Part shown: one piece after another, positions 717 to 14,611 of the stretch
Position numbering within the stretch: position 1 is the first letter of the stretch
Layout of the letters: each line of letters starts with the position of its first letter
Source of the DNA: Acidobacteriota bacterium
Lineage (GTDB): Bacteria; Acidobacteriota; Terriglobia; Terriglobales; Acidobacteriaceae
NCBI GenBank assembly: GCA_021779935.1
Contig: JAJXZT010000030.1
Coordinates: 1 to 62,353, forward strand
Direction of reading: 5' to 3'
DNA: 62,353 nt
Position numbers and translations under genes: made by a program
The notes under the pieces: model-generated
What the model was told of the DNA's origin: nothing
The model's input: only the letters and a program-made list of their open reading frames with translations
Database searches by the model: none

Positions 717-1964
717 TTACACGCCGCACTTCGCCAGCAACTCAGCCTTCGACATTCCGAGAATGCCGTGGCGCTCGCCTACCTTCTTGAATGCTTCGAT
801 GGCGAAGTCAAGATGGTGCTTTTCATGCGCTGCCGAGAGCTGTGTACGGATGCGCGCCTGTCCCTTGGGCACCACGGGGAAGAAGAATCCGACGGCATAG
901 ACGCCTTCGTCGAAGAGTTCGCGCGCGAAGTCCTGCGCGAGCTTGGCGTCGTAGAGCATCACCGGCACGATGGGGCTTTCGCCTTCCTTGATGTCGAATC
1001 CGGCGTCCTTGAGCAGGCCGCGCCAATACTTTGCGTTCCACTCCAGCTTGTCTCGCCGCGCGGTGGAGGCGGTGATAATGTCCATCACCTTGAGCGCTCC
1101 AGCCACGATGACCGGCGCTACCGAGTTGGAAAAGAGATACGGACGCGCACGCTGACGGCACATTTGCACCAACTCGCGGCGTCCGCTGACGCATCCGCCC
1201 GAAGCGCCGCCGAGAGCCTTGCCGAGCGTGGTGGTGATGATGTCGATTCGCCCGAAGACGCCGCAATGTTCGTGTGTTCCGCGACCGGTACGACCGATAA
1301 ATCCCGTGGCGTGCGAATCATCGACGAAGACCATGGCGTTGTATTTCTCCGCCAGTGCGACGATCTGGTCGAGCCGGGCGATGTCGCCATCCATCGAGAA
1401 GACGCCATCGGTGATGATCATGCGGCGGTGCTTGTCCTGGTGCTCCTGGAGCTTTTCTTCCAGGTGATGCATATCTGAATGTTTATAGGTGTCCTGCATC
1501 GCCTTGCAGAGCCGCATGCCGTCGACGATGGAAGCGTGCACGAGGCGGTCGGCAATCATCACATCCTGCTCGCCGAGGCAGGCTTCGAAGAATCCCGCGT
1601 TGGCGTCCATGCAGGAGGGGAACAGCAGCGTGTCTTCCGTGCCGAGAAAACTGGTCAGGCGGTTTTCAAGTTCGCGATGAATATCCTGGGTGCCGCAGAT
1701 AAAGCGTACCGACGACATGCCGTAACCGCGGCTGTCGAGCCCGGCGTGCGCGGCTGCAATCACTTCCGGATGGCTGGAGAGGCCGAGGTAGTTATTGGCG
1801 CAGATGTTGATGCACTTCTTGACTTTGGAGCCGGCTGGAAATTCAACTTCGATCTCCGAACCCTGCGAGGAGTGAATATAGCGTTCTACCTTGAACAAAC
1901 CGGCGGCGTTGATGGACTCAATCTCGGCGAGATAAGAATTGCGAATCGTATCGTTGTAGGCCAT
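717..1964 (-). CDS. kbl: KBL-like alpha-oxoamine synthase (glycine C-acetyltransferase family)
   Basis: PLP-dependent enzyme of the alpha-oxoamine synthase family, 415 residues. It matches 2-amino-3-ketobutyrate CoA ligase along its length: ICANNYLGL near the N-terminus, SVRFICGTQ, DGVFSMDGD, DDSHATGF, and the PLP lysine in TTTLGKALGGASGG. KBL normally condenses glycine with acetyl-CoA or the reverse, paired with threonine dehydrogenase. No tdh is present here; instead the gene follows an acyl carrier protein, an AMP ligase and a holo-ACP synthase on the same strand. By analogy with bacterial serine palmitoyltransferase loci, the acyl donor may be carried on ACP; that part is inference. The ATG has SD AGAGGAT. 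Family assignment is secure, substrate is not. Confidence 0.88.
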   Translation of the reverse strand: MAYNDTIRNSYLAEIESINAAGLFKVERYIHSSQGSEIEVEFPAGSKVKKCINICANNYLGLSSHPEVIAAAHAGLDSRGYGMSSVRFICGTQDIHRELENRLTSFLGTEDTLLFPSCMDANAGFFEACLGEQDVMIADRLVHASIVDGMRLCKAMQDTYKHSDMHHLEEKLQEHQDKHRRMIITDGVFSMDGDIARLDQIVALAEKYNAMVFVDDSHATGFIGRTGRGTHEHCGVFGRIDIITTTLGKALGGASGGCVSGRRELVQMCRQRARPYLFSNSVAPVIVAGALKVMDIITASTARRDKLEWNAKYWRGLLKDAGFDIKEGESPIVPVMLYDAKLAQDFARELFDEGVYAVGFFFPVVPKGQARIRTQLSAAHEKHHLDFAIEAFKKVGERHGILGMSKAELLAKCGV

Positions 1965-2045
1965 GGCAATCCTCTGTGACCAGGAATGGGTACGGGGCCC
2001 GGGGCCTAAACCGGATAAAGACGGAGCAATGATAGCCCGTAGCTA

Positions 2046-2321
2046 TTACGGCGGACAGATGCTGGCTGCCGGCGCATTCTGAAACCGTCGAACCAGCTCG
2101 ACGATGCTCTTTACGGTGTCGAATGCGTCGGGTGTGGCGCATGCGTCCGGAATTTGAATGTGGTATTTCCTTTCCAGAAAGCGCTTCAGGGAGACCATCG
2201 AAAATGAATCGACGATCCCGCCGGAGATCAGCGGAGTTGTCTCGGTGATCTGGCGGTCATCGCCTTCCTCAATGTATTCCCTGACAACGTAGTCGCGAAC
2301 AACCTGTGTGATCTCGTCCAT
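2046..2321 (-). CDS. Stand-alone acyl carrier protein
   Basis: A 91-residue carrier protein. The phosphopantetheine attachment site is the serine in GGIVDSFSM (Ser39), preceded by the usual Asp, and the protein has the expected four-helix length and acidic N-terminal helix. It differs from housekeeping fatty-acid ACP, which usually reads DSLD, and ends with a Pro/Ala-rich tail. It lies between the AMP ligase (24 bp upstream) and the KBL-like enzyme (81 bp downstream), which suggests a dedicated carrier for this pathway. A GAGAGGA ribosome site precedes the ATG. Confidence 0.88.
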   Translation of the reverse strand: MDEITQVVRDYVVREYIEEGDDRQITETTPLISGGIVDSFSMVSLKRFLERKYHIQIPDACATPDAFDTVKSIVELVRRFQNAPAASICPP

Positions 2322-2345
2322 GATGCCCCGTCCTCTCGCGGTGTT

Positions 2346-4052
2346 TTAGTCGTCCATGATGGTGGAGAGGTCTCCCACCGGTTCGTGAAATTCCTTGCAG
2401 CGCAAAACCCTGCGAACGATCTTGCCGCTGCGCGTCTTGGGCAGTGAGTCAACAAATTCAATCTCCTGTGGCATGGCCAGCGGAGAGAGCTTCTTGCGTA
2501 TGCGGTTCATGATCTCCAGTTCGAGTTCGTCCGAAGGCGTGTAGCCGGGCTTGAGCGTGACGAATGCCTTTACCACTTCCATGTTGACCGGATCGGGCTT
2601 GGCCACCGCCGCCGACTCATGCACGGCGGGATGCTCCAGCAGTGCCGACTCGATTTCGAATGGACCAACAAGGTGTCCGCCGGTGTTGATGACATCGTCG
2701 TCGCGTCCCATGAACCAATAGTAGCCATCGGCATCGATGGAGGCGCGATCTCCGCAGAGATACCATCCGTTCTTGAACTTGGCGTTGAACCCCGCTTCGT
2801 TGTTCCAGTAACCGCGAATCTGCGAGGGCCACCCCGGACGCAAGGCAATCAGTCCGGCGATTCCCGTCTGGTTGATTGGCTCGAAGGTTGTGAGGTCCAA
2901 CACGGTTGCGGTGATTCCGGGAAATGGCTTTCCCATCGAGCCGGCTTTAATCGGCATTCCGGGCAGGTTGGTGATCACGATGCATCCGGTTTCCGTTTGC
3001 CAGAACGTATCGTGGAAGGGCCTTCCGTACGCTTCCTGTGACCAGATCACCGCTTCCGGATTGAGCGGCTCGCCGACGCTGGCCAAGTGGCGGAGGCTGG
3101 AAAGATCGTGACGGCGAACAATCTCCTTTCCCTCCTTCATCAACAGACGAATCGCCGTCGGCGCCGAATACCACACGGTGACGCGCTGTTTCTCGATGAA
3201 GTGATACCAGCTCTCCGCATTGAATCCCGAATCGAGTACGACTTGCGTCGCGCCGTTGGACCACGGTCCGATGATGCCGTATGACGTGCCCGTGACCCAG
3301 CCGGGATCTGCGTTGCACCAATAGATATCGTTGGGTTGCAGATCGAGCACCCACTTGGAAGTGAGGTACTGCGAAATGATGGAGTAATGAACATGCTGCG
3401 CGCCCTTCGGCTGGCCGGTGGTGCCGGAGGTGTAGTGCAGCACCGAGGGCGACTCGGCGAAGGTGGGGAAGACCACGAAGTCTTCCACCCGGCGCGCCTC
3501 GTCCATGTGGAAGGCAATCTCGCGCTCCTGTAGCGGCGAGTCGCCGGCATCCACCACGATGATGTGACGCAGATCGGGAAGCTGATCGCGAATCTTGCGT
3601 ATTTTGTGGACGTGTTTCTTCTGCGTGAAAATCGCGGCGGTGCCTGCATCCTTCAGCCGCACCAGTAGCGACTCGTCGCCAAAGGCGGAAAAGAGCGGCT
3701 GCGCAACCGCGCCCGTCTTCAGGATGCCGAGAAAGCCGATGTAGAGTTCCGGGATGCGATCCATGAACAGGCAAACGCGTTCGCGCGGCTTGATTCCCAG
3801 ATCGCAAACGAATTGCGCGATGGTGTTGGAGAGCAGGCGAAGATCGTCGAACGTGTATTGCCTGTGCTCGCCCTGGAAGTTTTCCCAGATGAGCGCGAGT
3901 TTCCGCTCGTTGCCCATCTGGCAGATGCGGTCGCTGCACATCCAGCCAATGTTGATGGGCTCGCCCGGTTTGTAGTGGAGTTCTTTCTCCGCGATGGACC
4001 ACGTGAAGTTGGCGGTGACTTCTTCGTAGTTGAGGCACGAAGCGCGCGGCAT
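2346..4052 (-). CDS. AMP-forming acyl/acetyl-CoA synthetase-like ligase
   Basis: ANL-superfamily adenylating enzyme, 568 residues from the ATG at 4052; an in-frame TTG at 4100 would add 16 residues and overlap acpS. Visible motifs in order: the P-loop-like TSGTTGQPKG, the acetyl-CoA-synthetase signature NADPGWVTGTSYGI, WQTETG, GDRASIDADGYYWFMGR, and the catalytic lysine in KTRSGKIVRR near the C-terminus. The motif set is closest to the short AcsA form of acetyl-CoA synthetase, not to long-chain ligases. Placed between acpS and acp, it probably activates a short carboxylate and may load it on the adjacent ACP rather than CoA. Substrate and acceptor are inference. Confidence 0.85.
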   Translation of the reverse strand: MPRASCLNYEEVTANFTWSIAEKELHYKPGEPINIGWMCSDRICQMGNERKLALIWENFQGEHRQYTFDDLRLLSNTIAQFVCDLGIKPRERVCLFMDRIPELYIGFLGILKTGAVAQPLFSAFGDESLLVRLKDAGTAAIFTQKKHVHKIRKIRDQLPDLRHIIVVDAGDSPLQEREIAFHMDEARRVEDFVVFPTFAESPSVLHYTSGTTGQPKGAQHVHYSIISQYLTSKWVLDLQPNDIYWCNADPGWVTGTSYGIIGPWSNGATQVVLDSGFNAESWYHFIEKQRVTVWYSAPTAIRLLMKEGKEIVRRHDLSSLRHLASVGEPLNPEAVIWSQEAYGRPFHDTFWQTETGCIVITNLPGMPIKAGSMGKPFPGITATVLDLTTFEPINQTGIAGLIALRPGWPSQIRGYWNNEAGFNAKFKNGWYLCGDRASIDADGYYWFMGRDDDVINTGGHLVGPFEIESALLEHPAVHESAAVAKPDPVNMEVVKAFVTLKPGYTPSDELELEIMNRIRKKLSPLAMPQEIEFVDSLPKTRSGKIVRRVLRCKEFHEPVGDLSTIMDD

Positions 4053-4083
4053 TGAGCAGTCCGTTCTTGGCGCCGGTCGTCGA

Positions 4084-4461
4084 CTAACCTTCAAGGACAA
4101 CGATCGCGCCAGTATGCTTCACTGCAAATGCGATCGAGAGCCTGATTTCCCGTACACCCATTTGTTCGGACCTGGACCTGAGCCGGTTGTGCAAAATGAC
4201 CCCGTATTGGCCGTTGTGCTCTTGCACTTCTGTTTCACGGAAGTACGCGAGATCGCTGACTTCGATTCCGATGGCTTTCAGCGTCGCTTCCTTTGCGGCA
4301 AAGCAGGCGGCATATCGCGCCGCCGGTTTTCTGCCTGCTTCGCAGTATGCAATTTCCGGGGCAGTAAAAATGCCGTCGGCGGGTCGCCAACTGCCGTGCG
4401 CGAGTTCTCGCTCAACGCGACAGTTTTCCAGCAAATCGATCCCCATGCCAATCATCGCCAT
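4084..4461 (-). CDS. acpS: Holo-[acyl-carrier-protein] synthase
   Basis: AcpS-type 4'-phosphopantetheinyl transferase, 125 residues, the normal family length. The two Mg-binding signatures are visible: GMGIDLLE at the N-terminus and FAAKEATLKAIG around residue 54. It transfers phosphopantetheine from CoA to the serine of apo-ACP. It is the first gene of the minus-strand operon, so it presumably activates the ACP encoded two genes downstream; it could also be the cell's only AcpS. The ATG at 4461 has an AGGGG ribosome site. The stop lies 31 bp before the preferred start of the ligase. Confidence 0.9.
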   Translation of the reverse strand: MAMIGMGIDLLENCRVERELAHGSWRPADGIFTAPEIAYCEAGRKPAARYAACFAAKEATLKAIGIEVSDLAYFRETEVQEHNGQYGVILHNRLRSRSEQMGVREIRLSIAFAVKHTGAIVVLEG

Positions 4462-6736: not shown

Positions 6737-7531
6737 TCAGCTTCGTCTCTGCAGTACGTGCAGGATTCCGCTCAGCAGCATGGCTGGTGTCGGAGGGCAG
6801 CCCGGGATGTAACCATCCACGGGGATGATCGCGTCGAGCGGGCCTGCCGTGGCGTGGCTTCCGGCGAAGATGCCTCCACTGCAACCGCACGCGCCCACGG
6901 CCACCACAAGTTTCGGAGAGGGTGTCGCCGCGTAGGTCTGCCGTACGGCCTCGGCCATGTTGCGCGTCACCGGGCCCGTGACCAGCAGCATGTCGGCGTG
7001 CTTCGGCGACGCAACAAAGTGAATGCCGAATCGCTCCAGGTCGTAATAAGGATTCGTTATTGCGACGATCTCCGCTTCGCAGCCATTGCAGGAACCCGCA
7101 TCGACTTCGCGTATGTTCAGCGCGCGTCCCAGCAGAGAGCGAATCTCCCGCGCGGAATTTTCCATTTCGCGTTCACTGCTGACGATCTCCGCGCCGCTTG
7201 CGACATCCCAGCGCCGGACAAGACCACTCTTCGTCGCGCCACAACAGGCAAGCTTCTGTGCCGCGACGAACGCGCCCGCACCGGCCTCTATGCAGCGTCC
7301 ACAGGCGACGCAGTCTGCGTAATTCAAGACGAGTTGCGTGCGACCGTCCGCTTCTTCCAGCGTTAGCGCCGTGGTGGGACACGCGTCGGCGGCGCGACGT
7401 GCAATCTCGGCCGTCAACAGCGACGGCTGCACGTCAGGCATGCGGCTGCCCTGCGCGTCCATGAGCAACTGCTCGACGGGAATGAGCACGCGCCGGCTGG
7501 AAAGGCTTTGCTTTACCGTGTCGAAAATCAT
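6737..7531 (-). CDS. hyfI: Ehr complex HyfI/NuoB-like subunit with fused mono-cluster ferredoxin domain
   Basis: 264 residues. The C-terminal ~125 residues are a NuoB/HyfI domain with all four ligands for the proximal [4Fe-4S] cluster: Cys148 and Cys151 (SCNGCE), Cys215 (GACGCSGG) and Cys245 (PGCPP). The N-terminal ~100 residues are a degenerate HyfH/NuoI-type ferredoxin keeping Cys51 (ACPTTAL) and Cys74/77/80 (CVACGRC). In dicluster ferredoxins these four form one complete cluster, so one cluster seems retained and the other lost. It is the last gene of the operon; its start overlaps the HyfG-like stop by 4 bp. Electron-transfer role on the cytoplasmic face is expected from the family. Confidence 0.85.
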   Translation of the reverse strand: MIFDTVKQSLSSRRVLIPVEQLLMDAQGSRMPDVQPSLLTAEIARRAADACPTTALTLEEADGRTQLVLNYADCVACGRCIEAGAGAFVAAQKLACCGATKSGLVRRWDVASGAEIVSSEREMENSAREIRSLLGRALNIREVDAGSCNGCEAEIVAITNPYYDLERFGIHFVASPKHADMLLVTGPVTRNMAEAVRQTYAATPSPKLVVAVGACGCSGGIFAGSHATAGPLDAIIPVDGYIPGCPPTPAMLLSGILHVLQRRS

Positions 7532-8997
7532 CGGTCACATCCGGAGTAGGAAAGATTGAAGCTCTTATTGATGAGCGGAAAGTCGGCGATGATGTTGCCT
7601 GGCATGGCGAGTGGCAGCGCGGGCCAATTCTGGAACGATGGCGACTTGATGTGGCAGCGCGCGATGCGTCCGTTGCGCACGCGCACCCAGTAGAACAATT
7701 CGCCGCGCGGCGACTCCACCGCCGAAAAGCCTTCGGCGCTGGCATCCGCGGAAATCGATGTGCGGATGGCGCCCGTGGGCATCTCGCGGAGAGTGTCGGC
7801 GATCAGCCGTGCGGAGATTGCCGTTTCGTCGATGCGTATGCGCGCGCGCGCCAGCACGTCGCCCTGGGAATGATGCGCAATTTCCGTGGCGAACTCACGA
7901 TAGCGTCCATAGGGATGGTCGCGGCGCACATCGATCTTTATGCCGCTGGCGCGTGTGACCGGTCCAACCACGGCGAGGTCGCGCGCAACATCGCGTGAGA
8001 GCACGCCCGTGGACTCGAAGCGGTTTTGCACCGAAGGAGTCTCCAGGATGATTTTTGCGAGCTCGGCGAAGTCGCGTGCCGCTTCGGCGACAATGCGTTG
8101 CAACTCGGCGGCATCCACAGCGGCCAGATCGATGGTGACTCCACCGGGGACGGCTACGCCTCTCCAGAAACGCGTGCGGAAAAATCGCGTGGATGCCAAC
8201 AGCAGCGATTCCTTGATGCGCGCCGTGTAAGCGGCGGGAACCGTGAAGCCAACGTCTCCGCAGAGCGCGCCCACGTCGGCGATGTGCGCCATCATGCGCT
8301 CCAACTCAAGCCCGATCAGGCGCAGTGCGCGTCCACGCGCCGGTACGGCAACGCCGAACGAGTTTTCCATTGCCTGCGAATAGGCGACGGCGTGCGCGAA
8401 ACAGTTGTCGCCCGAGACCGACTCGGCGATCAGGCATCCGTCCGCGATGGGCATGTTTTCGAACAGCTTTTCCGTTCCCTTGTGCGTGTAGAAGTGGCGC
8501 AGCTCCAGGTTCAACACGGTGTCACCCACAATGCTGAAGCGAAAATGTCCGGGCTCAATGATGCCCGCGTGTACAGGCCCAACCGGCACCTCGCAGACGC
8601 CTTCTCCTTCGACCTTCAGAAAACGATACGGCGTGCGCGTTCCCGCCGGAACCTTTTCGAAACCGGCAGTCATCGGGTGAACGCCTTCCGCCCAGTTCTC
8701 GTGGAAGAGCAACGGTCGCAGGTCGGGATGGCCTTCGATGGCAACGCCGTACTGGTCGTGCAGTTCGCGCTCGTACCACGCAGCGGCGGGAGTGATGGGC
8801 GTGGCCGAGGCGATTGGGCCTTCGCCCGCGATGCTGACGACGCGATATTGACGATTGTCGATATCCACGGCGTAGTGGACGCGACGGCTGCCGTCCTCAT
8901 CCAGGCTGCCGAAGATCGACACCAGGCGAACGCCCGGGCGGTGCAAGAGCTTCAGCGGATCGGTGGTTTCGTGAGACTGAGCGAGAATCGCGTTCAT
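7528..8997 (-). CDS. hyfG: Ehr complex HyfG/NuoCD-like large subunit lacking NiFe cysteines
   Basis: 489 residues: an N-terminal NuoC-like domain (to ~110; WYERELHDQYG) fused to a NuoD/NiFe-hydrogenase large-subunit domain (GPVHAGIIEPGHFRF from residue 140). In real hydrogenases the active site uses two CxxC motifs. Here the first region reads SVSGDNCFAH (Cys199 only, no CxxC) and the C-terminus reads NLSYSGCDR in place of a DPCxxC motif. Nickel coordination is therefore not possible in the usual way. No C-terminal processing extension and no hyp genes are nearby. This matches the energy-converting hydrogenase-related group, whose catalytic partner is unknown. 4-bp ATGA overlaps at both ends. 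Confidence 0.88.
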   Translation of the reverse strand: MNAILAQSHETTDPLKLLHRPGVRLVSIFGSLDEDGSRRVHYAVDIDNRQYRVVSIAGEGPIASATPITPAAAWYERELHDQYGVAIEGHPDLRPLLFHENWAEGVHPMTAGFEKVPAGTRTPYRFLKVEGEGVCEVPVGPVHAGIIEPGHFRFSIVGDTVLNLELRHFYTHKGTEKLFENMPIADGCLIAESVSGDNCFAHAVAYSQAMENSFGVAVPARGRALRLIGLELERMMAHIADVGALCGDVGFTVPAAYTARIKESLLLASTRFFRTRFWRGVAVPGGVTIDLAAVDAAELQRIVAEAARDFAELAKIILETPSVQNRFESTGVLSRDVARDLAVVGPVTRASGIKIDVRRDHPYGRYREFATEIAHHSQGDVLARARIRIDETAISARLIADTLREMPTGAIRTSISADASAEGFSAVESPRGELFYWVRVRNGRIARCHIKSPSFQNWPALPLAMPGNIIADFPLINKSFNLSYSGCDR

Positions 8998-10448
8998 TGC
9001 AGCACCGCCATCGCGCTATGCAGCAGGTTGGTGAAGACCGGGGGAATTCTCAAGCCGAGCACGAGCAGACACGCCACACAGACAGCGGTCGGCGCCAGGT
9101 CCGTAAGAAATGCCTTGGGCCGAACGCGCGTGGTGTGCGACTCACCGCCGAGCATGTGCTGGAAGTGGAAGAGCATCGCGCCGAAGGCCACGGAGAGCGC
9201 CACGAGGATCAGCGCCGCAATCAGGTAACTGCCTTGCGTGAACGCGGCGGTGAGAATAATGAACTCGCTGACGAAGAGTCCGAAAGGCGGCATGCCGACG
9301 ATGGCCAGTCCGCCGGCGATCATCGCGCCGCTGGTCCAGGGCAGCGTGCGTGCCATGCCACGGATGCGGTCCATGCGCAGCGTTCCATAATTCTCGCGAA
9401 CGTCACCGGTGGTAAAGAAGAGCATTGTCTTTGCCAGCGAGTGATTGAAGGCATGAAGCAACGCGCCAAAAAGTCCTAGCGGTCCGCCGATCCCAACGCC
9501 GAGTGCGACGATGCCCATGTGCTCGATGCTGCTATAGGCCAGCAGGCGTTTTAAGTCGCGTTGCACGATCATGAGGAACGCTGCGACAGTGATCGAGAGC
9601 CCACCGAAGATCAGCAGCAGATGATGACTGAACCCAGGTCCAAGTGCGCGCGCGGTGATGGCGTCAAAACGTAACACGGCGTACATGGCGCAGTTGAGCA
9701 GCACCGCCGAAAGTAGCGCGCTGATTGGCGACGGCGCTTCGGCATGTGCGTCCGGCAGCCAACTGTGCATCGGCACAAAACCGATCTTGGTGCCGTATCC
9801 AACGACGATGAAGACGAACGCGAGCTTCAGCAGTTGCGGCGCGGCGGCCAGTCGTGGCGCGGCGTTCATCAGCACGGTCCAGTTCAGCGCGGTGTCCTGT
9901 GGGATTCCACAGCGCACGGCCGCCAGGTAGAACGTGATGGTGCCGAAGAGCGCGAAAGCGATGCCCACGGTGCAGACGATGAGGTATTTCCACCCGGCTT
10001 CCACCGCGCCCTTTGTGTTGTAGAAACCGACAAGGAACGCCGACGCCAGCGTCGTGGCTTCCACGGAGATCCACAGCAGGCCGAGGTTCGCCGAGAGATA
10101 AACGGCGATCATGGTAAAGAGAAAGAGGAAGACCAACCCGTAGAACCAGCGCGGTGAAGAGAAACGTCCCTCGGGAATGTGCCGCAGATATCCCACGGAG
10201 TAGACCAGCACCAGCGCGAAGATAAGCCCAATGTTGATAAGGAAGAATGCCGTCAGGCTGTCGGCGCGCAGATATTCGCCGGCCTGTAATGCGCCGGTGG
10301 TGTAGACGCGCACCACGGCATTGCCAATGGCGATCATTTCCAGCGCGCCAACGCCGAGTGCAACGCGCACTGCGACGCGCGGGCTTTTACAGAGGAGCAC
10401 GGTGAATGCTCCAAGCAGCGGAATCAGGAGTGGGAAGATCAATACCAT
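8994..10448 (-). CDS. hyfF: Ehr complex HyfF-like proton-pumping (MrpD/NuoN-like) subunit
   Basis: 484 residues, about 14 transmembrane helices, Proton_antipo_M family. The residues used in proton translocation are visible: the TM5 glutamate in LLWISVEATT and the lysine in GYGTKIGFVPMHSWLP, followed by DAHAEAPSPISALLS and KRLLAYSSIEHMG. It should sit in the inner membrane and pump protons or Na+ when electrons pass through the peripheral arm. The gene is 4 bp downstream of the HyfE-like gene and overlaps HyfG by 4 bp, so translation is coupled. Confidence 0.88.
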   Translation of the reverse strand: MVLIFPLLIPLLGAFTVLLCKSPRVAVRVALGVGALEMIAIGNAVVRVYTTGALQAGEYLRADSLTAFFLINIGLIFALVLVYSVGYLRHIPEGRFSSPRWFYGLVFLFLFTMIAVYLSANLGLLWISVEATTLASAFLVGFYNTKGAVEAGWKYLIVCTVGIAFALFGTITFYLAAVRCGIPQDTALNWTVLMNAAPRLAAAPQLLKLAFVFIVVGYGTKIGFVPMHSWLPDAHAEAPSPISALLSAVLLNCAMYAVLRFDAITARALGPGFSHHLLLIFGGLSITVAAFLMIVQRDLKRLLAYSSIEHMGIVALGVGIGGPLGLFGALLHAFNHSLAKTMLFFTTGDVRENYGTLRMDRIRGMARTLPWTSGAMIAGGLAIVGMPPFGLFVSEFIILTAAFTQGSYLIAALILVALSVAFGAMLFHFQHMLGGESHTTRVRPKAFLTDLAPTAVCVACLLVLGLRIPPVFTNLLHSAMAVLQ

Positions 10449-10452
10449 CGTC

Positions 10453-11115
10453 TCAGCCCCTCAACCGCCGCAGCTTCGAGACGTCGAGATGATCGAACGT
10501 GTCGCGAATCCGGAAGACAAATAATCCCATCAGAAAAACACCCATCAGCAAGTCGAAGAAAATTCCTATCTCGATGACCAGCGGCATGCCGAACGTGCTG
10601 GTGAGCGCGGCGAGAAATACGCCATTCTCCAGCACCAGCAGGCCGATCACCTGCATCAGCGCCTTCTTGCGGCTCACCATCAGGAAGCATCCGGTAAGTA
10701 CCAGTGCGATCGCGGCGGCCAGCATGTCTTCGTCGATGTTGAAGGCGCGGACATAGGGCTGAACCACGAGAAACGAGAGCAGGATCAGCGCGGCGGTGAT
10801 GAACACCGATTGCGCGGATGTCGTCGAGGCCTTTACCTCGCGCGGCATGTTCAACCGGTCCACAATGCGCAGCAGCAGGTACGGAATTGCCAGCACTTTG
10901 ATCACGAGCACGAGGAACGCGATGGCATAGGCCTCGGCCGAGCGGTGCACGTAGGCGGTCGCAAGAATCTGCGCGGTAACTACTGCGCCCTGCATGCTGA
11001 ACAACACGATGCAGGTGCGGGTTCGCTTGGCCGAGGCCAGCAGCAACAGCGTGATGAAGATGAATACGGCAGACGACGCCAGTGTCTTCGCCGCTGCAAT
11101 GTCAACCAATCCCAT
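10453..11115 (-). CDS. hyfE: Ehr complex HyfE-like membrane subunit
   Basis: 220 residues with six or seven predicted membrane helices and the HyfE signature region LRIVDRLNMPREVK between helices. It combines features of MrpC/NuoK-like proteins (acidic residues within helices such as FNIDEDMLAAA) and, as in E. coli hyf/hyc loci, lies between the NuoH-like and NuoN-like genes. The ATG has TGAGGTGAT upstream. It starts 3 bp after the HyfC-like stop and is clearly part of the operon. Confidence 0.85.
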   Translation of the reverse strand: MGLVDIAAAKTLASSAVFIFITLLLLASAKRTRTCIVLFSMQGAVVTAQILATAYVHRSAEAYAIAFLVLVIKVLAIPYLLLRIVDRLNMPREVKASTTSAQSVFITAALILLSFLVVQPYVRAFNIDEDMLAAAIALVLTGCFLMVSRKKALMQVIGLLVLENGVFLAALTSTFGMPLVIEIGIFFDLLMGVFLMGLFVFRIRDTFDHLDVSKLRRLRG

Positions 11116-11118
11116 ACA

Positions 11119-12057
11119 TCACCTCATCACCGCAGTGAAGACCACTGCCAGGATCGAAAGCGCGCACGCCACGCCGAGGAAATCCGGCACCATGTACATG
11201 CGCAACTTGGCCACGCTGCTTTCCACCACCGCAAGCACCACGGCCAGCGCCGCTACTTTGAGCGCGTATACCGCAATTGCGATGGCCAGTCCGGCGGCGG
11301 TGAAAGCAGTCGCCATTCCCCATGGAGCGAAGAGCGCAATCAGCAGCGCGATCATCACGTTCAGTTTTATTGCGCTGGCCCACTCAATCAGCGCGAGACT
11401 TGGTCCCGAATGTTCCAGCACCATGGATTCGTGAATCATCGTGAGTTCGAGGTGCGTGGTGGGATTGTCGACCGGGATGCGCCCGGTCTCGGCGATTGCC
11501 ACCAGCGCCAGCGCCGCCACGGCCAATGCATGTACGGCCGAGAGGCGGAAGAAATCCTGTTGCAGCGTCCACTGCACAATACCGGCGAGCGTCGCAATGC
11601 GCGCGACCACGGCCACCGCCGTCAGCGCCAGCAACAGTGGAGCTTCGGCCAGCGTGGAAACCAGGGCTTCGCGGCTTGCGCCCATGCCGCCGAATGCGCC
11701 GCCACCGTCCATCGCCCCGAGCATCAGGAAGAAGCGCCCGAAGGCGAGCAGGTAGGCAAGCAGGATGAAATCGCCCATCGTGCCGAGAAGCGCCGAGGCG
11801 TGCAACACCGGTATGAATGCCGCTGCTGCCACGGTCACGGCAAACAACAGGACCGGTGAGAGTCGAAAAACAAACGAAGCTGTCGGCGGGACAAGGTCTT
11901 CTTTTGCGAAAAGCTTCCGTAGTTCCGAGTAGGGCCGCCAGACGCTGGCGCCTTGCCGGTTCTGTATCCGCGCCTTGATTCGCGAGACGATGCCGCGCAC
12001 CAGTGGTGCAAGGGCGACCAGCAACACGGCCTGTACGATGTCGAGCAGCAACTTCAT
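11119..12057 (-). CDS. hyfC: Ehr complex HyfC/HycD (NuoH-like) membrane anchor subunit
   Basis: 312 residues, eight membrane helices. It carries the NuoH/HycD signatures: RIQNRQGASVWRPYSELRKL at the N-terminus, GAFGGMGASREA, and ETGRIPVDNPTTHLELTMIH on the loop that contacts the quinone-site region in complex I. This subunit connects the membrane arm to the soluble HyfG/HyfI module. Its start overlaps the HyfB-like stop by 4 bp. In E. coli hyf an additional HyfD follows; it is absent here. Confidence 0.9.
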   Translation of the reverse strand: MKLLLDIVQAVLLVALAPLVRGIVSRIKARIQNRQGASVWRPYSELRKLFAKEDLVPPTASFVFRLSPVLLFAVTVAAAAFIPVLHASALLGTMGDFILLAYLLAFGRFFLMLGAMDGGGAFGGMGASREALVSTLAEAPLLLALTAVAVVARIATLAGIVQWTLQQDFFRLSAVHALAVAALALVAIAETGRIPVDNPTTHLELTMIHESMVLEHSGPSLALIEWASAIKLNVMIALLIALFAPWGMATAFTAAGLAIAIAVYALKVAALAVVLAVVESSVAKLRMYMVPDFLGVACALSILAVVFTAVMR

Positions 12058-14024
12058 AGGAACCTCATAAAGAGCAGCAGCGAAACCAGCGCCAGGAAGA
12101 GATAGAGCAGGTAGACCTGTATGTTTCCCGTCTGCAAGCGCCGCAGACGATGCGCCGCTGCCACCACTGCATCGACCGCGGGACGATAGAGCGCGCGTTC
12201 AAAGGATGTTGTGCGCACCGAGCGATAGGAAATTGTTTCCGGAAAGTATGGCTGCCCGGCAGGCGAAATATTTACCGCGCGATCAGGCCGGTAGACCTGC
12301 GAAAACACTTTGCGCAGCGGCTTGGAGAGCGCTGTTCCGCTGTATTGCATGCGCGCATCGAGTCCGGGTTGTCCGCAGGCCCACGTTGCGGTTACACGCA
12401 CGGTTCGCCTGACGAGCGCGACCACGGCAACAATCGCGATGACCGCCAGCGCGAGCCACGGAAGCACCGTCGCGATGGATGTGGCTTGTGCGGGCATCGC
12501 GGTCCCCGGCATAAGTTCGCTGATCGTTGTCATCAGCGGCCACAGGACAATAGCGGGAAAGACTCCGATCAGCACGCATGCCGCTGCGGGCAGTGCCACG
12601 CCGAGTTGCATCAGCACCGGCACTTCGCGTGCGTGCTCTGCCTTTTCACTTCGCGGACGGCTCAGGAAAACTACTCCATAGAGTTTTGCGAAGCACGCCG
12701 CCGCCACTCCACCGATCAGCGCCAGCACTCCGGCGACGAGCGGCAGAACAATCGCAGGTGCAATCGGTGGCAGCGTCGATCCGCCGAGGAACGCACGGAA
12801 CGCCAGCCATTCGCCGACGAAGCCGTTAAACAGCGGCAGCCCGATGATGGAGCAGCAGGCGACGAGCATTGCGATGCCGGTCACGGGCATGCGGTTGAGC
12901 AGTCCGCCGAGCTCTTCCATGTTGAGCGTGTGCGTGGCGTCGGAAACCGAGCCCGCGCCGAGAAAGAGCGTGCTCTTGAACAGCGCATGGTTGATCGCAT
13001 GCAGCAGTGCGGCCAGCAGGGCCAGCGCGGCCAGCGACGGAGCGCCATAGGCGCGCAGCACCATCGCCGCGCCGATCGCCATAAAGATGATGCCGATATT
13101 CTCGACGCTGCTATAGGCAAGCAACCGTTTGATGTCGTTTTCCGCCAGCGCGTAAAGCACGCCCAGCACGCCGGAGACGGCTCCGGCAGCCAGCACGAGA
13201 TATCCCCACCACGCCGGGCCAGTACCAAGGAAGTCGAACCCGAAGCGCACGAATGCGTAGACCGCCGTTTTCAGCATCACGGCCGACATCAATGCCGAAA
13301 CCGGACTCGGCGCGATCGGATGGGCGCGCGGCAGCCAGAGATGCAATGGTACGATTCCAGCCTTGGTTCCAAAGCCGAGGAACGCGAGCAGGAAGATTGC
13401 CGTGCGCATACCTTGTGGCATCTGCGCCGCAACCGTGCGCATGGCCGCGAAGGTAAGTCCTGGAGCGTGCGGCAGGAAAAGCAGGAACGCTCCAATGACC
13501 GCTGCCGCCCCCACGTGCATCATCAGCAGATAAATAAAGATATTGTGCCGCCGCTGTCCTGCGTCGCCTTCCATCATGATGAGCCCGGCGGAGAGCAGCG
13601 TCATCAGCTCCCAGCCAAAGAGAAAGGCGAAGCCGGTCGAGGCCGTTACCACCAGCACCATCGAGGCGATGAATGCTGGCAGCAATATCCAGAGCCCATC
13701 GCGACGCAGCCCCTCGTAGTGACGCTCGATATACGACGCCGAGTACAGCACGACAGGGACGCTAACCGCACAGATCAGCAGCAGAAAGAACGCACTAAGG
13801 CGATCCACCGTCAGCGCGAAGGGAAGCGGCGTAAGGCGTGAGAGATCGAGGGAGAGCCGGTCGCCGCGCCAGAAGCTGACGCCCGTTGTAGCAGCGCCCG
13901 TCAGCAGCGCCACCACCAGGACGATGGGCGACAGAGCACGCGCCTTTTTCATCTTGACGCAGAGCAGGCTTACGATTGGCGCCACGAGAAGCAGCAGAAG
14001 GAACGTATTGAATCCGTAAATCAT
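12054..14024 (-). CDS. hyfB: Ehr complex HyfB-like proton-pumping (NuoL/M-like) subunit
   Basis: 656 residues, about 16 membrane helices, Proton_antipo_M family with a C-terminal extension as in HyfB. Key residues: glutamate in FLFGWELMTLLSAG, lysine in GTKAGIVPLHLWLP, then SPVSALMSAVMLKTAVYAF and KRLLAYSSVENIGI. It is the first structural gene of the operon, about 95 bp downstream of the ArsR regulator. Together with HyfF it gives this complex two antiporter-like pumping modules. Confidence 0.9.
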   Translation of the reverse strand: MIYGFNTFLLLLLVAPIVSLLCVKMKKARALSPIVLVVALLTGAATTGVSFWRGDRLSLDLSRLTPLPFALTVDRLSAFFLLLICAVSVPVVLYSASYIERHYEGLRRDGLWILLPAFIASMVLVVTASTGFAFLFGWELMTLLSAGLIMMEGDAGQRRHNIFIYLLMMHVGAAAVIGAFLLFLPHAPGLTFAAMRTVAAQMPQGMRTAIFLLAFLGFGTKAGIVPLHLWLPRAHPIAPSPVSALMSAVMLKTAVYAFVRFGFDFLGTGPAWWGYLVLAAGAVSGVLGVLYALAENDIKRLLAYSSVENIGIIFMAIGAAMVLRAYGAPSLAALALLAALLHAINHALFKSTLFLGAGSVSDATHTLNMEELGGLLNRMPVTGIAMLVACCSIIGLPLFNGFVGEWLAFRAFLGGSTLPPIAPAIVLPLVAGVLALIGGVAAACFAKLYGVVFLSRPRSEKAEHAREVPVLMQLGVALPAAACVLIGVFPAIVLWPLMTTISELMPGTAMPAQATSIATVLPWLALAVIAIVAVVALVRRTVRVTATWACGQPGLDARMQYSGTALSKPLRKVFSQVYRPDRAVNISPAGQPYFPETISYRSVRTTSFERALYRPAVDAVVAAAHRLRRLQTGNIQVYLLYLFLALVSLLLFMRFL

Positions 14025-14119: not shown

Positions 14120-14461
14120 TTAAGGAGAGGACTTCTCCACACCCGGCGACAGTTGTTCAAGCAGGTCACGGATGTCGATCAGGTGGTTGTTAAAGATTCG
14201 ACGCGCGTTGTCGAGCAGGTGAATAATCTCCGGGTCGCGTATTGAGTAGTAGACGTTTTGACCCTCTTTGCGTCCCACCACGATGTTGCTTTTTCGCAAC
14301 ACTGCGAGCTGCTGGGAGAGGGTGGTCTGTTCCACCTGAAGCCGCAGGCTAAGCTCGTTGACACCGACTTCGCCCTGGCGCAGTGCGTCTAACACCCTGA
14401 TTCTTAAGGGATGGGAGAGGGCCTTGAAGAATTCTGCCGTAAATTGTGATAGTTCAGGCAT
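14120..14461 (-). CDS. ArsR-family winged-helix regulator at head of the Ehr operon
   Basis: 113 residues from ATG 14461 (a TTG at 14473 would add four residues). Typical ArsR fold: FFKALSHPLRIRVLDAL at helix 1-2, then the recognition segment VEQTTLSQQLAVLRKSNIVVGRKEGQNVYYSI. The ELCVCDL-type metal-binding cysteine motif is missing (VNELSLRL) and the protein has no cysteine at all, so a metal sensor of the ArsR/SmtB type is unlikely; a redox or organic signal, or none, must act. It is co-directional with and just upstream of hyfB, so it probably controls the Ehr operon and itself. Confidence 0.85.
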   Translation of the reverse strand: MPELSQFTAEFFKALSHPLRIRVLDALRQGEVGVNELSLRLQVEQTTLSQQLAVLRKSNIVVGRKEGQNVYYSIRDPEIIHLLDNARRIFNNHLIDIRDLLEQLSPGVEKSSP

Positions 14462-14473
14462 AAGTACATACAA

Positions 14474-14485
14474 ATATTCGCATAT
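14474..14485. promoter_or_regulatory. Candidate ArsR operator
   Basis: ATATTCGCATAT, an ATAT-N4-ATAT inverted repeat 13 bp before the ArsR start codon, in an AT-rich stretch. Position and symmetry fit an autoregulatory site of an ArsR-family dimer. No biochemical consensus for this protein is known, so confidence is low. Confidence 0.35.
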
Positions 14486-14536: not shown

Positions 14537-14571
14537 AAAAGAAAAGGCGCAACCCGTCGTGGGTCGCGCCT
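14537..14571 (-). terminator. Rho-independent terminator of the phosphodiesterase gene
   Basis: On the minus strand an AGGCGC/GCGCCT stem extended by ACCC/GGGT, with one mismatch and a 5-base loop, followed by TTTTCTTTT. It lies about 40 bp after the stop at 14612. Confidence 0.75.
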
Positions 14572-14611
14572 CTTGTGCTGAAGTTTCGTTACAGGTATAT
14601 GTCGCGCCGTT

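Follow-up and report, generated by a model that had tools for sequence, protein, structure and literature searches.

What can an operon do that is built like that of a group 4 [NiFe] hydrogenase and encodes a large subunit without the cysteines that ligate the metal? This question is raised by a contig of an Acidobacteriota bacterium (JAJXZT010000030.1 of assembly GCA_021779935.1), of which the whole stretch analysed, positions 1 to 62,353, is called here the window. Its minus strand encodes, in this order, an ArsR regulator and the subunits HyfB, HyfC, HyfE, HyfF, HyfG and HyfI. An earlier note, made from the DNA sequence alone, had claimed that the HyfG-like protein keeps the NuoD/hydrogenase fold and the GPVHAGIIEPGHFRF block, with both CxxC sites gone. 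The features that bear on this claim are:

7528..8997, minus strand: HyfG/EhrL-type large subunit, a NuoC-NuoD fusion of 489 residues without [NiFe] ligands (open reading frame, Pfam, alignment, AlphaFold model)
8401..8415, minus strand: SGDNC, residues 195-199, in place of the first CGxC; C199 is clade-specific (alignments, coordinates from the frame)
7537..7551, minus strand: SYSGC, residues 483-487, in place of the second CxxC; C487 is clade-specific save for 5 ligand-less rows and 1 intact row (alignments)
8554..8556, minus strand: E148, equivalent of MbhL E21 (the proton-relay Glu of hydrogenases), in the beta1-beta2 loop (alignment with 6cfw_L)

Both parts of the claim hold. Pfam matches the protein to Complex1_49kDa (3.9e-43), Complex1_30kDa (1.3e-15) and, weakly, NiFeSe_Hases (7.4e-7), and Escherichia coli HycE (7z0s_E) is the top solved structure by sequence (5e-71) as well as for the AlphaFold model (predicted local distance difference test, pLDDT, 90.2; predicted template modelling score 0.92), with Z 46.1 and a root-mean-square deviation of 2.2 over 482 aligned residues (Foldseek: 3.3e-35), the 49 kDa subunits of complex I coming next. 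In the alignment with 7z0s_E, RVCGICGFAH of HycE faces SVSGDNCFAH and DPCYSCTDR faces NLSYSGCDR, which maps the four former ligand positions to S195, N198, S483 and G486 (CGIC replaced by SGDN, CYSC by SYSG). These comparisons confirm that the large subunit is a homologue of HycE/HyfG that has lost all four [NiFe] cysteines.

Relatives were searched for in 396 genomes of the phylum and 399 of the class, the flanks being fetched for 40 places, and in a scan of named genomes from which the best 80 of 581 relatives were used; among these 80 are Ca. Acidiferrum typicum, Nitrospira moscoviensis, Geomonas, Desulfosporosinus and Bradyrhizobium. The joint alignment comprises 145 rows (L106 was removed as a duplicate), 18 with four ligands and 127 without, two of the latter being NuoD; counts at single sites are over 123 ligand-less rows, after removal of the two NuoD, L055 and L128 (contig stops before the C-terminus). 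The window falls into a clade of 12 loci, itself included (Shimodaira-Hasegawa-like approximate likelihood ratio test, SH-aLRT, 99), whose other members are 54-74% identical to its large subunit. In all 12 the motifs are SGD[N/H]C and SYSGCDR, and the protein stops at the CDR motif, so no C-terminal peptide is present for a maturation protease, and no stop was found inside the large-subunit frame across the 12 genomes. Open frames and agreeing motifs in 12/12 members rule out a sequencing error or a pseudogene.

By sequence comparison, operon content and tree placement, the complex is confirmed as a member of the Ehr (energy-converting hydrogenase-related) family, an assignment that also fits the descriptions in the available parts of four publications (PMC4378227, PMC6349859, PMC10284858, PMC12342949). 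It shares with the Ehr of Nitrospira, Geobacter, Sulfobacillus and candidate phyla radiation (CPR) bacteria six syntenic Hyf-like subunits and a group 4-like large subunit without [NiFe] motifs (the N. moscoviensis row reads SGDTT/SYAGND), while the window's clade adds the C199/C487 pair and, in most loci, a neighbouring ArsR gene. Ehr are defined by the ligand loss itself, which is already in print in the accessible parts of PMC4378227, PMC10284858, PMC7304191 and PMC10432482, and HydDB, as far as its accessible description goes, keeps Ehr out of the hydrogenases (PMC5037454). The available portion of a 2025 paper on Nitrospirales still calls the function of Ehr unknown and reports that its expression in N. 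moscoviensis is not raised by H2 (PMC12342949). What is new here is the clade with a displaced cysteine pair, together with the quantitative points on conservation and co-occurrence.

Ehr was seen in Acidobacteria, Nitrospira, Verrucomicrobia, Rokubacteria, Geomonas, Bradyrhizobium and several archaeal and CPR bins, with the same six-subunit gene set in distant phyla; no viral copies turned up in one scan. In the tree, a single branch (SH-aLRT 94, not starred) groups 117 of the 124 ligand-less rows, and those outside this main group, namely five Nitrospirae rows, L130 and L055, suggest at least two further ligand losses. The Nitrospirae rows (L131, L138, L140, L158, L160) form a separate ligand-less clade reading SG[T/A/V]S[S/A] and SYSGCD, in which the loss was probably independent, to judge from the tree; the Asp at HyfC position 200 is kept in four of the five, L131 being unread. 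L130 (Desulfosporosinus sp. UBA8487), placed among intact relatives, reads SGIC and SYAC, a half-way ligand state in which each pair has lost its first Cys but not its second.

Judging by the alignment, the vacated site is under constraint, S-G-D and S-Y-x-G-x-D being conserved rather than decayed. G196, S483, Y484 and D488 are present in all 123 ligand-less rows, G486 in 120, D197 in 116 and S195 in 115, N198 being the variable one among the site positions (S/T/N). The conservation of the seven site positions was unmatched by random sets of 7 columns in 20,000 draws; taken by themselves, the four ligand columns stand out less (p about 0.01), owing to the variable N198. E148 is retained in 119/123 ligand-less and 18/18 intact rows and is G in both NuoD rows. 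Since E148 is kept, the ligands are lost and G196 stands at the position of the quinone-site Tyr of complex I, the pocket is that of a hydrogenase-type proton relay without metal ligands or quinone Tyr. These former active-site columns rank with the most conserved ones, which suggests that a substrate is bound or protons pass there.

Genomes that have the operon but no HypD lend further weight to the earlier conclusion that its product is not a hydrogenase. The counts of HypD and of pyruvate:ferredoxin oxidoreductase (PFOR) cover 50 of the 72 matching class genomes, those with identity of at least 40% (22 with 33-37% were left out), the Ehr motif itself having been read in all but about 14 of the 50. 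HypD is present in 33 of these and absent from 17; of the 12 clade genomes 4 lack it, including two with a listed completeness of 100% (G265, G737). With both CxxC motifs lost, no C-terminal extension and HypD absent from some carriers, identity as a [NiFe] hydrogenase is rejected. The earlier note had proposed a search for hyp genes: the window's own genome (4.49 Mb, 72 contigs) has HypD on contig C65 and one HycI-type protease, and neither is linked to the operon, the protease lying outside the window beside one of two true [NiFe] hydrogenases (C43 and C32, both CxxC motifs present). A scan of this genome with PF00374 missed both of its Ehr copies, and this profile is therefore not a safe detector. 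The second Ehr copy (contig C31, L037:4113-5657, minus strand) is 40% identical, and reads SGDSA/SYSGHD; the HyfI behind it lacks the fused ferredoxin domain, and the 5.7 kb contig cuts the operon.

The other subunits of the operon are:

6737..7531, minus strand: HyfI small subunit with a fused one-cluster HyfH-like domain, 264 residues
7292..7381, minus strand: extra [4Fe-4S] motif of HyfI (C51, C74, C77, C80)
6797..7090, minus strand: proximal [4Fe-4S] motif of HyfI (C148, C151, C215, C245, and the extra C217)
8994..10448, minus strand: HyfF, antiporter-like pump subunit; E130, K221 and E395 retained
10453..11115, minus strand: HyfE-like membrane subunit
11119..12057, minus strand: HyfC (NuoH-like); E138, D197 and E204 retained, carboxylate at position 200 lost
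12054..14024, minus strand: HyfB, antiporter-like pump subunit; E139, K221 and E405 retained

B/C, F/G and G/I overlap by 4 bases, C/E and E/F are 3-4 bases apart, and 95 bases follow ArsR. The two pumping subunits and the intact HyfI cluster of the earlier note are borne out: the pump Glu/Lys of HyfB and HyfF are retained in the window and in 17/17 relatives compared, and the proximal-cluster motif (CNGC, with CxxC spacing as in MbhJ of the membrane-bound hydrogenase, MBH) and the extra N-terminal [4Fe-4S] motif occur in 12/12 clade HyfI. The model of HyfI has a mean pLDDT of 61.9 and only its N-terminal part was used; the fused domain in it matches HycF (7z0t_F, Z 10.3), and its Pfam ferredoxin match falls below the cut-off. 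For the suggested energy-conserving enzyme the retained pump residues speak in favour, the role itself being what we infer from them. HyfC position 200, in the loop between transmembrane helices 5 and 6, is D/E in 14/15 intact rows versus 9/85 ligand-less ones, a change that may, by this comparison, mean an altered proton route. Loss of this carboxylate together with the ligands is unsupported, some early ligand-less rows keeping the acid, and the association cannot reach significance because the tree holds only 2 independent pairs.

Three known systems help to place this set of subunits. With E. coli formate hydrogenlyase (HycE/HyfG, 7z0s) the operon shares the fold, the NuoC-D fusion, the relay Glu and the HyfB/C/E/F/I set, but it lacks the [NiFe] cysteines, the C-terminal extension, HyfA, HyfD, a separate HyfH and HycH/HycI/HyfJ. 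The nearest intact group 4 [NiFe] hydrogenases (L051, L052, L118, L142; large subunit 38-44% identical) have the same subunits and H202 and E204 of HyfC, but keep the four Cys and, in 14 of 15, the HyfC-200 carboxylate; the intact rows nearest to Ehr in the tree we take to be group 4f by name. Respiratory complex I (NuoD/NuoB/NuoH/NuoL-M) shares the fold, the pump modules and the absence of all four Cys, whereas the window's complex lacks the quinone-site Tyr and the NADH module (no NuoEFG among the open reading frames from ArsR to HyfI) and has CxxC instead of CC in the proximal cluster.

The operon very probably encodes an ion-pumping Ehr complex that does not turn over H2. As to donor, acceptor, pumping and direction, we infer the following scheme. 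Within the complex I/group 4 hydrogenase superfamily, the six-subunit complex would act as an energy-converting membrane oxidoreductase that has given up H2. Its donor would be a soluble carrier of low potential, most likely ferredoxin that the genome's pyruvate and 2-oxoacid oxidoreductases reduce. This carrier would dock on the HyfH-like domain of HyfI, and electrons would pass from the [4Fe-4S] cluster of this domain via the proximal cluster to the former [NiFe] pocket, where an organic acceptor of two electrons, in this host probably menaquinone, would be bound. The acceptor would be protonated via the relay Glu E148 and the new acids and hydroxyls S195, D197, S483 and D488; conserved interface loops would relay the change to HyfC and so drive proton translocation by HyfB and HyfF. 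Reverse operation, with reduced ferredoxin made at the expense of the proton gradient, may also be possible.

This reading, a proton pump that takes electrons from ferredoxin and reduces an organic acceptor (in this host menaquinone), is put forward tentatively; it has a real chance of being correct, though well short of an even one. The build of the complex supports it, by way of an electron path over two [4Fe-4S] clusters to a pocket that can be protonated and to which two pump subunits would be coupled. PFOR of the window's own genome is over the cut-off (1780.9 bits vs 911), as is a 2-oxoacid oxidoreductase alpha subunit; PFOR exceeds the cut-off in 29/50 Ehr genomes versus 86/349 others (odds ratio 4.2), and UbiA-family genes are found in 5/5 clade genomes tested.

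Several observations weigh against this reading. PFOR over the cut-off is missing from 4/12 clade and 21/50 Ehr genomes, and because HypD and PFOR co-occur (odds ratio 6.9), the link between PFOR and Ehr may only mark an anaerobic life style. Among 12 other Ehr genomes, a UbiA-family match is missing from five and below the cut-off in one more (these are metagenome-assembled genomes of unstated completeness), so that, with 5/17 Ehr genomes lacking a match, quinone cannot be the acceptor in all Ehr. The head-group Tyr of complex I (Y87 of Nqo4) is G196 in 123/123 rows, as in hydrogenases, and the loop carrying E148 (residues 141-149) has a pLDDT under 50 in the model. Glutamates 36 and 72 of NuoK are unmatched in HyfE, likewise in E. 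coli HyfE, and K265 of NuoM is Asn in HyfF, likewise in the E. coli Hyf protein. The window's operon has no linked donor gene. Two stronger proposals fare worse: a universal quinone reductase is weakened by the UbiA-family result, and PFOR or formate dehydrogenase as an obligate partner is unsupported, each failing to reach its cut-off in many Ehr or clade genomes. A linked partner gene was rejected as well: the recurring neighbours scanned, of which 10 were reported, include helicases and FtsK, a sigma-54 regulator and a histidine kinase, a radical SAM protein and a protein of iron-sulfur repair, and formate dehydrogenase-like genes came up only at L048.

That locus bears on a formate-linked Ehr, in which formate dehydrogenase would be the donor, as it is in formate hydrogenlyase, and the electrons would go to something other than protons; we regard this as not very likely. 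A candidate formate dehydrogenase-Ehr unit is seen at L048:9702-12370 (G379), where one NuoF-like gene and another with domains of the NuoG/FdhA type come after the Ehr operon. The accessible parts of two papers describe all Ehr subunits of Geobacter sulfurreducens as more abundant on formate than with hydrogen (PMC7894505) and propose a formate dehydrogenase-Ehr complex for Riflemargulisbacteria and Saganbacteria (PMC6349859). Geomonas limicola, a relative of Geobacter, belongs to the clade that is sister to the window's. The top solved match of the window's ArsR is Rv0081 of Mycobacterium tuberculosis (6jmi, 2.5e-18), which He and co-workers are said to have treated in 2011 as the regulator of a locus titled predicted formate hydrogenlyase. 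A Hyf-like operon adjoins Rv0081 (Rv0081-Rv0087), the likeness to the window being by the ArsR match. Against a formate link, none of the five molybdopterin loci of the own genome (L187 read in part) reaches the formate dehydrogenase cut-off, the best of them being a reductase of the DMSO (dimethyl sulfoxide)/selenate type. In the 12 clade genomes formate dehydrogenase is over the cut-off in 3, a fourth scoring 658 vs 666 and 3 having no match at E 1e-60. Nor did the operon show HyfA/HycB, the subunit by which E. coli passes on electrons from its formate dehydrogenase.

Quite unlikely, in our view, is an ion translocator or regulatory complex without catalysis in the pocket, in which electrons would go via soluble partners or a proton or sodium channel would be gated by the redox state of the clusters. 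The retained pump residues and the identical six-subunit set in distant phyla are compatible with it, as is the finding that 31/54 other ligand-less operons and 6/8 clade operons, counted where both ends are visible, have no co-directional open reading frame of at least 100 residues within about 200 bases; the former active-site residues, however, are among the best conserved columns.

Less probable still is a sulfur reductase like the membrane-bound sulfane sulfur reductase (MBS/Mbx) of Pyrococcus furiosus, with polysulfide or sulfane reduced beside the proximal cluster and C199 and C487, along with HyfI C217, handling sulfur. Each of these three cysteines is present in 12/12 clade members. 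The window's ArsR, however, has no cysteine, nor is one conserved in its clade relatives, whereas thiol-based sulfide sensors use cysteines. The available part of PMC7684303 characterises MBS as an ion-pumping group 4 relative that has lost its [NiFe] site and reduces sulfane sulfur, but it also describes differences: MBS retains two of the four cysteines, whose mutation left activity, lacks equivalents of E21, H38 and Y87, and needs a three-cysteine proximal cluster formed by a shortened motif. The window's large subunit retains E21 as E148, and its HyfI keeps the CxxC spacing of MBH and does not have the shortened motif.

A residual or cryptic hydrogenase with other ligands, or a decaying relic, is highly improbable: although the own genome has [NiFe] hydrogenases, HypD and a HycI-type protease, 17/50 carriers do without HypD, HycI adjoins the C43 hydrogenase rather than the window's operon, and the large subunit lacks a C-terminal extension and shows open frames and strong conservation in 12/12 clade members.

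The question is thereby narrowed to a conserved S-G-D/S-Y-x-G-x-D pocket in which the relay Glu is kept, [NiFe] maturation is unneeded and quinone is not required across all carriers, with one clade offering a testable cysteine pair. Because Ehr sit between hydrogenases and complex I in build, their substrate, once known, would show what such proton pumps can be driven by.

C199 and C487 each sit one residue past the position of the lost second (bridging) cysteine, and being displaced in this way and clade-specific they are not leftover ligands. Of 156 columns invariant in the clade, 13 carry a residue that is rare (under 8%) in the 111 other ligand-less rows, and both cysteines are among these (C199 0/111, C487 5/111); C487 without C199 occurs in those 5 rows and in one intact row. 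L128, the row dropped because its contig ends early, also reads SGDNC and is 96% identical to L094. C199 was gained once on the tree, and is therefore one event and not repeated covariation. C217 of HyfI, which is two residues away from a ligand of the proximal cluster, is present in 12/12 clade members, in 6/30 readable other ligand-less rows (56 being unreadable) and in 4/13 intact rows. It is rather unlikely, though worth stating, that C199 and C487, perhaps with C217, form a new thiol site in the former place of [NiFe], either a redox-active disulfide or one that binds another metal or a sulfur substrate; if so, the complex I superfamily would have one more type of catalytic centre in addition to [NiFe], quinone and the MBS cluster. 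No report of the C199/C487 pair was found in the literature searched, which covered few subscription journals.

Upstream of HyfB lie the following features:

14120..14473, minus strand: ArsR/SmtB-type regulator without cysteine; start probably ATG at 14461
14459..14484, minus strand: candidate operator, an imperfect inverted repeat over a promoter-like -10 (tentative)
14542..14574, minus strand: terminator-like hairpin of 14 pairs between the upstream gene and ArsR

Among loci with both ends visible, ArsR is near the operon in 7/8 of the clade, 18/54 other ligand-less and 0/12 intact ones; the window also has it. The candidate operator has 5/20 mismatches (0/500 shuffles were as good) and its counterpart in L087 1/20; an operator shared by the clade was rejected, the repeat being weak or absent in the seven other clade loci examined. 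Terminator-like sites number 10 vs 8.3 expected, so the hairpin is suggestive only. In L097 (G408), L049, L134 and L136 the order is ArsR-HyfI-HyfB-(C)-(E)-F-G, with HyfI leading; M. tuberculosis Rv0081-Rv0087 presumably has the same order, ArsR-I-B-C-E-F-G, as seen in L097.

Elsewhere in the window, positions 717-4461 of the minus strand hold an aminotransferase-fold gene resembling KBL/serine palmitoyltransferase, a small acyl-carrier-like open reading frame, an AMP-binding ligase and a small open reading frame resembling holo-acyl carrier protein synthase (names partly by eye), possibly a sphingolipid-type cluster.

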